A stretch of 64,000 bases of DNA from Aureimonas sp. AU12. GTDB taxonomy: Bacteria; Pseudomonadota; Alphaproteobacteria; Rhizobiales; Rhizobiaceae. Positions 26,724 through 31,492 of this stretch are shown in pieces. The notes beneath the pieces were generated by a model. The model was not told where the DNA came from, did no database searches, and worked only from the letters and a program-made list of their open reading frames with translations. The translations under genes and the position numbers were made by a program. The stretch's first letter is position 1. Each line of letters starts with the position of its first letter. Where the stretch lies: NCBI RefSeq assembly GCF_001463705.1, contig NZ_BBWH01000001.1:124001-188000 (forward strand). Direction: 5' to 3'.

Positions 26724-27176
<453 letters not shown>

Positions 27177-27234
27177 GCGCTGTGGCACTCAAGCCCACAC
27201 AAATTTTCGAGTCGTCCCATCAGGAAGGAACGCC

Positions 27235-28644
27235 ATGACCTCGGCTAACGACATTCTGAAGCAGATCAAGGACAACGACATCAAGTTCGTCGACCTGCGC
27301 TTCACCGACCCCAAGGGCAAGCTCCAGCACGTCACGATGGACGTGACGATGGTCGATGAGGACCTGTTCTCGGAAGGCACGATGTTCGACGGGTCGTCGA
27401 TCGGCGGCTGGAAGGCGATCAACGAGTCCGACATGATCCTGATGCCGGATCCCGACACCGCGCACATGGACCCGTTCTTCGCGCAGTCGACGATGGTCAT
27501 CATCTGCGACATCCTCGATCCCGTCTCCGGCGAGGCCTACAACCGCGATCCGCGCGGGACGGCCAAGAAGGCCGAAGCGTACCTGAACCAGTCGGGCGTG
27601 GGCGACACCGCCTATTTCGGCCCCGAAGCCGAGTTCTTCATCTTCGACGACGTGCGCTACAAGGCGGATCCCTACAACACGGGCTTCAAGCTGGACTCGA
27701 CCGAGCTGCCGTCGAACGACGACGCCGAGTACGAGACCGGCAACTTGGGACACCGTCCGCGCGTCAAGGGCGGCTATTTCCCGGTTCCCCCGATCGACAG
27801 CTGTCAGGACATGCGGTCCGAGATGCTGACCGTGATGGCCGAGATGGGCGTCGCCGTCGAGAAGCACCACCACGAGGTGGCGGCCGCGCAGCACGAGCTC
27901 GGCGTCAAGTTCGACACGCTCGTGAAGAACGCCGACAACATGCAGATCTACAAGTACGTGACCCATCAGGTCGCCAATGCCTACGGCAAGACGGCGACCT
28001 TCATGCCAAAGCCGATCTTCGGCGACAACGGCTCGGGCATGCACGTTCACCAGTCGATCTGGAAGGGCGGCAAGCCGACCTTCGCCGGCAACGAATACGC
28101 CGGTCTCTCGGAGAATGCGCTGTTCTACATCGGTGGCATCATCAAGCATGCCAAGGCGCTGAACGCTTTCACCAACCCGTCGACCAACTCGTTCAAGCGC
28201 CTGGTCCCCGGCTACGAAGCGCCCGTGCTGCTCGCCTATTCGGCGCGTAACCGCTCGGCTTCCTGCCGCATTCCGATCGGACAGTCGCCGAAGGCCAAGC
28301 GCGTCGAAGTGCGCTTCCCCGATGCGATGGCGAACCCCTACCTTGCCTTCGCCGCGATGCTGATGGCCGGCCTCGACGGCATCAAGAACAAGATCCATCC
28401 TGGCGCCGCCATGGACAAGGATCTCTACGATCTGCCGCCGGAAGAGCTGAAGCAGATCCCGACGGTCTGCCGGTCGCTGCGCGAAGCGCTCGAAAGCCTC
28501 GACGCTGACCGCGACTTCCTGAAGGCCGGCGGCGTCTTCGACGACGACCAGATCGATGCGTTCATCGAGCTGAAGATGGTCGAGGTGCTGCGCTTCGAGA
28601 TGACGCCGCATCCGGTCGAGTTCGACATGTACTACTCGGCCTGA
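27235..28644 (+). CDS. glnA: Glutamine synthetase, type I
   Basis: A 469-residue dodecameric GSI that makes glutamine from glutamate, ammonia and ATP. Family stretches are the beta-grasp domain ([19 protein letters not shown]), the metal and ATP sites ([26 protein letters not shown]), and the adenylylation loop with Tyr398 in [10 protein letters not shown]. So it should be controlled by GlnE and PII. AGGAAGG (27223-27229) is a good ribosome site. It follows glnB in one operon and ends at a strong hairpin. A second, GSII-type enzyme lies 1.8 kb downstream. Confidence 0.98.
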
Positions 28645-28664
28645 TCGACGAAGCTGACCGATGA

Positions 28665-28690
28665 GCGGGAGGCCCTCATGGGCCTCCCGC
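28665..28690 (+). terminator. Hairpin after glnA
   Basis: A perfect 11-bp inverted repeat with TCAT loop (28665-28675 with 28680-28690) begins 21 bases after the glnA stop. It is followed by GCTTC rather than a long T-run. It most likely ends or attenuates the glnBA transcript before the glutaminase gene. Confidence 0.65.
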
Positions 28691-28786
28691 GCTTCACGCA
28701 TAATTCCCGCGCTGACCGGTTGACGCCGAAGCGCAGGCAAGTGTGCACGCTGAGGTGGCAGTCCGGGCGACGAGGGTCGGCATCTG

Positions 28787-29728
28787 ATGAGCATGGCGAT
28801 CCCAGATCTTCAGGACGTCGTCGCCGAGATTGCCGACGAGATGCGCCAACGCGTCGACCGCGGCGATGTCGCCACCTACATTCCCGAGCTCGCTCGCGTC
28901 GATCCCGGCCATTTCGGCATTGCCGTCATCGATGCCGAAGGCCATGTCGCGACAGGGGGCGACGCGGATACTCCGTTTTCCATCCAGAGCATCTCGAAGG
29001 TCTTCACGCTGACGCTCGCTCTCGGCCTTGCCGGAGATCGGCTCTGGCAGCGGGTCGGGCGCGAGCCCTCGGGCAGCCGCTTCAATTCCATCGTGCAACT
29101 CGAGAGCGAGCGCGGCATACCGCGCAACCCCTTCATCAATGCCGGCGCGATCGCCGTCACCGACTTGATCCTGTCGGGGCATCAGCCGCGCGAAGCACTC
29201 GGCGAGATCCTGCGCTTCCTGCAGTTCCTGGCGGACGACACGACGATCCAGATCGACAAGGCGGTCGCGGCGTCCGAGCAGCGGACCGGCTTTCGCAATG
29301 CCGCTCTCGCCAACTACATGAAGTCTTACGGCGTCCTCGACAATCCCGTCGACTTCACGCTCGGCGTCTACTTTCACCATTGCGCGATCTCGATGTCATG
29401 CCGTCAGCTTGCGACGGCCGGGCGTTTCCTGGCGCATCTCGGTCGCAATCCGTCCACCGGCTTTTCCGTGGTCACGCCGGAACGGGCGCGCCGCATCAAC
29501 GCGGTGATGTTGACCTGCGGTCATTATGACGGCTCAGGCGAATTCGCCTACCGCGTCGGCTTGCCCGGCAAGAGCGGCGTCGGCGGCGGTATTATCGCGA
29601 TTGCGCCGGGAAAGGCTTCGATTGCCGTCTGGTCTCCGGGTCTCGACGAGTCCGGCAACTCGCATTTGGGCCGTATCGCTCTGGAAGCACTCGCGAAACG
29701 GCTCAACCTCTCGATCTTCGGATCGTGA
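28787..29728 (+). CDS. glsA: Glutaminase A
   Basis: A 313-residue serine-dependent glutaminase hydrolysing glutamine to glutamate and ammonia in the cytoplasm. The beta-lactamase-like nucleophile motif is SISK (Ser68, Lys71), with the family segments [15 protein letters not shown] and a C-terminal [19 protein letters not shown]. The length is standard for bacterial GlsA. It lies 142 bases after glnA, separated by a hairpin, so it probably has its own promoter. Placed among PII, GSI and GSII genes, it may adjust the glutamine:glutamate ratio or release ammonia from glutamine. Confidence 0.95.
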
Positions 29729-29756
29729 GGCGGCTCAACACTGTGACCGACCAATG

Positions 29757-29951
29757 CTACGACTTGGGGCGCCCCTGATCCTCGGCGATCGCGGCGGCAT
29801 GATACCAACTGTCGAACGCGGCGGCGCAGACGGATCGGGATCGGTCGTCCTGTCGCGCATCGACCGGGGCATTTGCCGAGCCGATGGGAAACCGGTTCCG
29901 GACGGGGAACGCGATGATCTGGGCGCTGGTCTGCTCGAAGTCAGGTCGCAT
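29757..29951 (-). CDS. Small DUF2735-like protein next to glnII
   Basis: A 64-residue protein with the conserved core SAQIIAFPVRNRF near the N-terminus and a C-terminal DSWYHAAAIAEDQ. This resembles DUF2735 proteins, which I recall being encoded near GSII genes in rhizobia. It has no signal peptide or membrane helix. A strong Shine-Dalgarno (AGGAGG at 29963-29958) supports the ATG. It reads away from glnII across a 494-base AT-rich gap and converges on glsA, 28 bases from its stop. The function is unknown; context suggests a nitrogen-linked role. Confidence 0.72.
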   Translation of the reverse strand: MRPDFEQTSAQIIAFPVRNRFPIGSANAPVDARQDDRSRSVCAAAFDSWYHAAAIAEDQGRPKS

Positions 29952-30336
29952 GGCGGACCTCCTGAGGTGTGACGTCTGTGTCGTGTCCTGTTCAGGTAGT
30001 ATCGTGGCTCCATTTTACCGCCCCTGCCACTTAAAAAATCATGACTGCGTTTTGTTTTCGCAATCTGGTTGCTATCGACGGCATGCTGCAAAGCAAAATA
30101 GGGCAATGTTCTTGTCCTATTCTTCCATAATCGACTGCTGATCGCGCGTTTTACGTTCACAAATCGTCAGCGCAGGATGTGTGCCTATGGATTGGGCAAT
30201 GTCGATTATTATTTAGGCATGTGGCGGTAGCGTTCAGGGTTCGACAGCAAAGACTTGGAAGGGAAGTCGGGATTGCCGACCTGCAATTCGTCAACTTCGG
30301 CGACCTTTGCCGTCTTCGATCGTCACGTGAGTAATG
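29952..30336. other. AT-rich regulatory gap between DUF2735 gene and glnII
   Basis: The 494 bases between the divergent DUF2735 and glnII genes are markedly AT-richer than the surroundings (for example TTAAAAAATC near 30031 and ATTATTATTTAGG near 30210) and hold no supportable gene. It should carry NtrC sites and possibly an IHF site for the sigma54 promoter at 30337-30352. I looked for TGCAC-N-GTGCA dyads and found none clear; the imperfect repeat near 30180-30199 is too weak to call. Confidence 0.5.
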
Positions 30337-30352
30337 TGGCACGCCGTATGCA
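30337..30352 (+). promoter_or_regulatory. Sigma54 promoter of glnII
   Basis: TGGCAC-GCCGT-ATGCA matches the -24/-12 sigma54 consensus TGGCAC-N5-TTGCA in all but one base, with the invariant GG and GC exactly ten bases apart. It lies 93 bases upstream of the glnII ATG. NtrC-activated sigma54 control of glnII is the established arrangement in rhizobia. Confidence 0.8.
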
Positions 30353-30445
30353 TCTGTCCTGGCAGCTGGTGGCGGCCAGCTCGATGCGCCGGCTTGCGTC
30401 GAGATGCCAAGACACCTCGTTCATCAGCCCGACAGAGGACCCACG

Positions 30446-31492
30446 ATGACAAAGTTCAAGCTCGAGTATATCTGGCTCGATGGCTACACCCCGGTTCCGA
30501 ACCTGCGTGGCAAGACGCAGATCAAGGAGTTCGAAGAGTTCCCGACGCTCGACCAACTGCCGCTCTGGGGCTTCGATGGCAGCTCGACGATGCAGGCCGA
30601 AGGCCGGAGCTCGGACTGCGTGCTCAAGCCGGTCGCTCTCTATCCCGATCCGGTCCGCACGAACGGCGTCCTCGTCATGTGCGAAGTGATGATGCCCGAT
30701 GGCGTCACCCCGCACGCCTCGAACAAGCGCGCGACGATCCTCGACGACGAAGGCGCCTGGTTCGGTTTCGAGCAGGAGTATTTCTTTTACAAGGACGGCC
30801 GCCCGCTCGGCTTTCCCGAGTCCGGCTACCCTGCACCGCAGGGCCCGTATTACACCGGTGTCGGCTATTCGAATGTCGGCGCGGTCGCGCGTGAGATCGT
30901 CGAGGAGCATCTGGACATCTGCCTCGCCGCCGGCATCAACCACGAAGGCATCAATGCCGAGGTGGCGAAGGGCCAGTGGGAGTTCCAGGTCTTTGGCAAG
31001 GGCTCCAAGCAGGCCGCCGACGAAGTCTGGATGGCGCGCTACCTGCTGCAGCGCCTGACGGAGAGCTACGGCATCGACATCGAGTACCACTGCAAGCCGC
31101 TCGGCGACACCGACTGGAACGGCTCGGGCATGCATTGCAACTTCTCGACCGCCTACATGCGCGAGACCGGTGGCAAAGCCTATTTCGACGCACTGATGGC
31201 GGCCTTCGAGAGCAATCTCGACGATCACATCGCAGTCTACGGCCCCGACAATCACATGCGCCTGACAGGCAAGCACGAGACCGCGCCGTGGAACAAGTTC
31301 AGCCACGGCGTGGCGGATCGTGGCGCCTCGATCCGCGTGCCGCACAGCTTCGTCAACAACGGCTACAAGGGCTATCTCGAGGATCGCCGCCCGAACTCGC
31401 AGGGTGACCCCTACCAGATCGCGTCGCAGGTGCTGAAGACCATCGCGTCCGTTCAGACGGGCAAGGAAGTCGGCATCTCCGCCGCAGCCTGA
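30446..31492 (+). CDS. glnII: Glutamine synthetase, type II (eukaryotic-like)
   Basis: A 348-residue GSII, the octameric/decameric glutamine synthetase of plants and rhizobia. Family signatures are KLEYIWLDGYTPVPNLRGKT, LWGFDGSSTMQAEG, EQEYFFYKDG, and NGSGMHCNFSTAYMRETGG. It lacks the adenylylation loop of GSI. The frame is open to 30404, but ATG 30446 (MTKFKLEYIWLDG) matches the family and has GACAGAGGAC before it. It is driven by a sigma54 promoter and followed by a terminator, so it is a single-gene unit induced under nitrogen limitation. Confidence 0.97.
   Translation: MTKFKLEYIWLDGYTPVPNLRGKTQIKEFEEFPTLDQLPLWGFDGSSTMQAEGRSSDCVLKPVALYPDPVRTNGVLVMCEVMMPDGVTPHASNKRATILDDEGAWFGFEQEYFFYKDGRPLGFPESGYPAPQGPYYTGVGYSNVGAVAREIVEEHLDICLAAGINHEGINAEVAKGQWEFQVFGKGSKQAADEVWMARYLLQRLTESYGIDIEYHCKPLGDTDWNGSGMHCNFSTAYMRETGGKAYFDALMAAFESNLDDHIAVYGPDNHMRLTGKHETAPWNKFSHGVADRGASIRVPHSFVNNGYKGYLEDRRPNSQGDPYQIASQVLKTIASVQTGKEVGISAAA

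Follow-up and report, generated by a model that had tools for sequence, protein, structure and literature searches.

A DUF2735 gene divergent from glnII in Aureimonas sp. AU12: a putative gstI ortholog and likely nitrogen-responsive brake on glutamine synthetase II

The DUF2735 gene and its surroundings

The window, i.e. the entire 64,000 nt stretch of Aureimonas sp. AU12 DNA that was analysed, carries a small gene, gstI (nt 29757–29951, minus strand), which specifies a DUF2735 protein of 64 aa and was delimited from the ORF list, its match to PF10931 and alignment with relatives. It starts with ATG, and a Shine-Dalgarno sequence, AGGAGG (nt 29958–29963, minus strand; read from the sequence), lies six bases 5' of this codon, in agreement with the strong ribosome site noted in the preliminary description. 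The family assignment made there also stands, DUF2735 being the sole family returned by Pfam, with a score of 35.6 bits (E = 1.4e-8; cut-off 25) and a match that spans residues 9–59 and the complete 52-position profile. The protein had no match in NCBIfam at E ≤ 0.01 and no relative among solved structures (best E 0.96), and a tblastn search of plasmid records gave just weak matches (12 records, best E 0.8).

Placement between a glutaminase gene and glnII, divergent to the latter, is as originally described. The glutaminase gene (nt 28787–29728, plus strand; Pfam E = 3e-116) is convergent to gstI across a gap of 28 nt, while glnII (nt 30446–31492, plus strand), the proposed target gene, is divergent. 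The product of glnII, glutamine synthetase II (GSII), scores 389 bits against NF041605, which is below the curated cut-off of that model (500). A Shine-Dalgarno-like AGAGGA (nt 30434–30439, plus strand; read from the sequence) precedes glnII, and its GAGAG core is kept across the glnII leaders compared. The context also includes glnA (GSI; nt 27235–28644, plus strand; Pfam/NCBIfam) and glnB (PII; nt 26838–27176, plus strand; ORF list and Pfam/NCBIfam), the latter with an apparent TTG start. No Rfam match reached its gathering score in nt 28600–31000, the best being M23, inside the glutaminase gene (20.7 of 41.2 bits, E 0.78). Glutaminase, gstI–glnII and glnA–glnB are neighbours not only in the window (nt 26838–31492) but again in several genera, in differing arrangements (L204, L178, L164 and others), which suggests a shuffled nitrogen cluster.

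According to the papers that cite the original work, gstI was described in 2000 as a gene restraining GSII production. The passages of PMC8829014 and PMC3596328 that concern GstI describe it as inhibiting the translation of GSII, citing Spinosa 2000 and Napolitani 2004 (the former is also referenced in PMC7240162), and put gstI beside glnII in Sinorhizobium meliloti 1021. On pSymB of this strain, a 61-aa protein divergent from glnII matches PF10931 with 72.4 bits (the record is unannotated there, and the ATG start was picked in the current study), and in Rhizobium leguminosarum Vaf-46 the same place beside glnII is taken by a PF10931 protein of 63 aa. Since a PF10931 protein occupies the place of gstI in both strains, DUF2735 can be equated with GstI, and a Pfam family of 'unknown function' is tied to a gene whose role has been described. 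In the literature searched, the two names are not joined in text, 'DUF2735' giving no match, and the S. meliloti copies listed in plasmid records are labelled 'DUF2735 domain-containing protein' or are nameless. Thus gstI is an already known, ordinary gene, and a regulator was rightly spotted from sequence, while the novelty of the candidate does not hold, as GstI is already in print in this role (PMC8829014, PMC3596328, in the passages on GstI).

Alignment of the window protein gives 29 of 67 identical columns with R. leguminosarum, 16 of 64 with S. meliloti and 19 of 67 with Aureimonas sp. SK2. On these figures its sequence is divergent from its relatives, which counts against the assignment to gstI. 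Among copies at the corresponding position of other genomes, the residues A, F, Y, H and also A are retained in 83–84 of 84 aligned proteins, which argues for a real gene rather than a chance ORF, and by family and place the window gene is classed as an ortholog of gstI.

Distribution of gstI and pattern of its product

The linkage of gstI to glnII is near total. In the union of the genome samples, all 94 genomes with DUF2735 also had GlnII and 92 had the two genes divergently adjacent, the two exceptions (G174 and G857) belonging to one genus. Within the order sample (199 genomes), DUF2735 was found in 36 genomes and GlnII in 37; each of the 36 had GlnII as well, with DUF2735 divergently adjacent to glnII in 35 of them. 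The family sample (151 genomes) had DUF2735 in 53, every one with GlnII and divergently adjacent, and GlnII in 68, two of which had it only as a 48% identical form. When the phylum sample (299 genomes) was surveyed for DUF2735, 24 genomes were found, all of the window's order; eight of these, picked out by eye, were new, and all eight had GlnII, adjacent in seven. At least 80 named loci were found by GlnII alone, and 78 of 80 had GstI, the contig ending first in the other two. The frequency with which DUF2735 neighbours glnII, proposed earlier as a check, therefore bears out the idea of a small protein devoted to GSII, as does the name gstI given to the S. meliloti counterpart in the papers cited above, and a wide occurrence of DUF2735 away from glutamine synthetase genes was not seen in the genomes searched. 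The class sample (289 genomes) had DUF2735 in two, the window's own genome and G588, beside glnII in both. G588 (L160) is of another order, carries gstI–glnII as a pair and is listed with 4% contamination; its pair is either transferred or misbinned.

A GstI profile built in the current study was run on 100 glnII upstream regions, and found the protein in 87 and none in 13, with scores well split (at least 40 bits versus about 5 or less). Two of the positives (G317 and G319) had been missed by the Pfam search. Among the 13 negatives, one (G324) reaches a contig edge and two (G174 and G117) have a detached copy elsewhere in the genome, that of G117 scoring 26.5 bits (E = 3e-5). For the other 10, all with a close GlnII, no GstI was found genome-wide at E 0.01 (with scoring limited in several to 150 candidates out of as many as 202), which implies that the brake is dispensable. 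On a tree of 84 of the 100 GlnII sequences, with G117 and G174 scored as absent despite their detached copies, no fewer than 7 changes, of which starred branches force 4, are required to explain where a local gstI is absent, and this suggests several separate losses or moves of the gene. Detached copies occur in three genomes of one genus (L286 from nt 1529, L287 from nt 1858 and L288 from nt 2435) and offer a natural test of action in trans. Five genomes (G217, G316, G386, G393 and G579) have a second GlnII form of about 50% identity, and DUF2735 was not found in them.

Alignment of 84 of 87 GstI copies (three were left out because their start site could not be set) points to two near-invariant end motifs flanking a middle that varies in length and sequence. 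In the N-terminal motif, A-x-I-x-x-F-P, the A, F and P are kept in 83, 84 and 81 copies, and in the C-terminal motif, W-Y-H-x-x-A, the W, Y, H and A are kept in 73, 84, 84 and 83. The window protein carries both (residues 10–16 and 49–54). For structure prediction, the window sequence was aligned with 53 of the 73 named-locus copies that remained after 5 of 78 with unsettable starts were set aside. AlphaFold2, given these 54 sequences, returned a mean pLDDT of 66.8, a pTM of 0.23 and one helix (residues 49–59) with no other element, so that the middle is probably disordered.

The intergenic region

A sigma54-type promoter, TGGCACGCCGTATGCA (nt 30337–30352, plus strand), begins 109 nt ahead of the glnII ATG and scored 15.7 of 16.7, so that the original view of glnII as an NtrC/sigma54-type gene holds as a sequence feature. 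Scores are raw scan values (maximum 16.7) against a sigma54 consensus; on this scale, 95 of 100 glnII upstream regions have a site of at least 14.5 within 300 nt of the start. Two NtrC-like dyads, TGC-N11-GCA, lie in the same intergenic region of the window, the one (nt 30046–30062) some 100 nt ahead of the start of gstI and the other (nt 30182–30198) about 150 nt upstream of the glnII sigma54 site, where 0.08 would be predicted from the window's own base rate. We take TGC-N11-GCA to be the NtrC consensus. No gstI promoter was found in the window against an E. coli-type consensus.

The spaced dyad is enriched in such regions. A palindromic dyad screen of 78 of 84 intergenic regions (six were left out, their sigma54 site being weak or close) returned TGCA-N9-TGCA and TGCC-N9-GGCA, which share the core TGC-N11-GCA. 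This core occurs 93 times in the 78 regions, compared with 13.7 (sd 3.6) in dinucleotide shuffles, and at least once in 59 of them. The same half-sites at spacings of 9, 10, 12 and 13 gave 8, 20, 10 and 11 sites, respectively, versus 12.8–13.9 in shuffles. Measured from the gstI ATG, 61 of the 93 dyads are centred at 50–125 nt. A dyad was found within the 300 nt preceding the sigma54 site in 9 of 12 glnII genes lacking a local gstI and in 53 of 78 with gstI. The three detached genes (G174, G117 and G857) each have one dyad, 115, 122 and 116 nt from the start, and have no sigma54-like site in the 400 nt upstream. A dyad in all three was seen in 5 of 1000 shuffles, although these genes represent one or two independent cases, all being from a single genus, with two of them in synteny. 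The pattern suggests an operator belonging to gstI itself, not just one of glnII that it borders, which agrees with the opposite regulation of the two genes as reported in the passages on S. meliloti.

Proposed working of the brake and comparison with known systems

Among the enzymes through which rhizobia retain or release ammonium is GSII, whose control therefore bears on symbiosis. The most complete explanation of the locus, and one held to be quite probable, is that gstI acts as a nitrogen-responsive brake on GSII translation, with the intergenic region serving as a two-way switch. When nitrogen is plentiful, GstI would cut the amount of GSII made from glnII mRNA. Under nitrogen limitation, phosphorylated NtrC would bind the spaced dyads and, once bound, switch on glnII via sigma54 and turn gstI down; in nitrogen excess, gstI would be expressed and leftover glnII message silenced. 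The target on which the end motifs of GstI dock would be a protein (GlnII as it is being made, or a factor associated with the ribosome) rather than a particular sequence of the leader RNA. Inhibition of translation is taken from how the citing papers describe the earlier work, while NtrC as the dyad binder, repression of gstI by NtrC and docking of the end motifs on a protein are what we infer.

In S. meliloti, as given in the passages of PMC8829014 and PMC3596328 on these genes, gstI and glnII are regulated oppositely, gstI going down in nitrogen limitation. In the account of PMC8829014, this low-nitrogen repression occurs only at sufficient phosphate, and for the gstI fold changes PMC3596328 gives P values of 0.07 and 0.1. 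A glnD mutant in the latter study had no detectable GSII, yet glnII was still induced and gstI still down, which indicates that gstI is not the sole post-transcriptional control.

If GstI bound a hairpin or some defined sequence of the glnII leader, this would fit a translational inhibitor, and a shared leader element would then be expected in genomes with gstI. Leaders were taken from 93 of the 100 regions (seven were dropped because of an N or because their sigma54 site was weak or lay too near), with 5' ends assumed from the sigma54 site, and divided into 81 with gstI (including G324, where the contig ends before gstI would be visible) and 12 without. Those with gstI are somewhat longer (median 78 versus 70.5 nt; Mann-Whitney p = 0.007, ignoring relatedness), which speaks for an RNA target, but in both sets conservation hardly extends past the ribosome site and start, and the expected element was not found. 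Folding energies are close to those of shuffles (mean z 0.03 with gstI, 0.19 without), so that leader RNA structure as the target found no support. The beginning of glnII showed no synonymous constraint either: in the gstI-bearing set (150 of 154 alignable coding sequences out of 155, counting L197 and L243, whose status is not known, and some genomes twice), synonymous sites of the first 20 codons vary more, not less, than those of the rest. Recognition of a specific RNA is accordingly unlikely. The two end motifs around a probably disordered middle, together with the lack of a conserved RNA element, make a protein partner (nascent GlnII or a ribosome-linked factor) likelier, and this is favoured with modest confidence. 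The question of how GstI silences glnII is thus narrowed to two kinds of target, protein or RNA, between which a test can decide.

The missing leader element would also suit a GstI that binds folded GlnII and inhibits its activity, like the cyanobacterial inactivating factors, as would its small size, its pairing with GlnII and the predicted chain, modelled at low confidence, with its two conserved motifs and single C-terminal helix. This was the mechanism first envisaged for the window gene, and it is now distinctly unlikely, as the passages on GstI in PMC8829014 and PMC3596328 place its effect at the level of GSII synthesis instead. GlnII residues show no clear split by gstI and do not help the choice (12 positions track the gene; in control clades chosen by hand the counts are 8, 9 and 2). 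Action through PII or another partner, with adjacency to glnII simply inherited as cluster structure, would accommodate the presence of glnA and glnB near glnII in several genera and the fact that gstI can exist unlinked. It is nevertheless highly improbable, since DUF2735 without GlnII occurred in none of the 94 genomes compared and G588, from another order, keeps the gstI–glnII pair together. Within the translational brake, a more specific form can be put forward tentatively, and is doubtful as it stands: a disordered, two-motif GstI might recognise GlnII during its synthesis through AxIxxFP and WYHxxA and block production co-translationally, leaving no RNA signature. If so, GstI would join recognition of the enzyme, in the style of IF7, with a translational outcome.

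The closest known system is GstI of R. leguminosarum and S. meliloti, which likewise belongs to PF10931, has 61–64 aa, is divergent to glnII and has the same end motifs as in the window. The window sequence has drifted from these (29/67 and 16/64 identical columns, respectively), and for the window gene the effect on GSII is a predicted one. In archaea, sP26 acts on GlnK; by their descriptions, it and GstI are both small proteins in nitrogen control, with different partners. Cyanobacterial IF7 and IF17 resemble GstI in being small proteins dedicated to one glutamine synthetase and perhaps disordered when alone, but they inhibit the enzyme itself, whereas GstI is described in PMC8829014 and PMC3596328 as an inhibitor of GSII synthesis.
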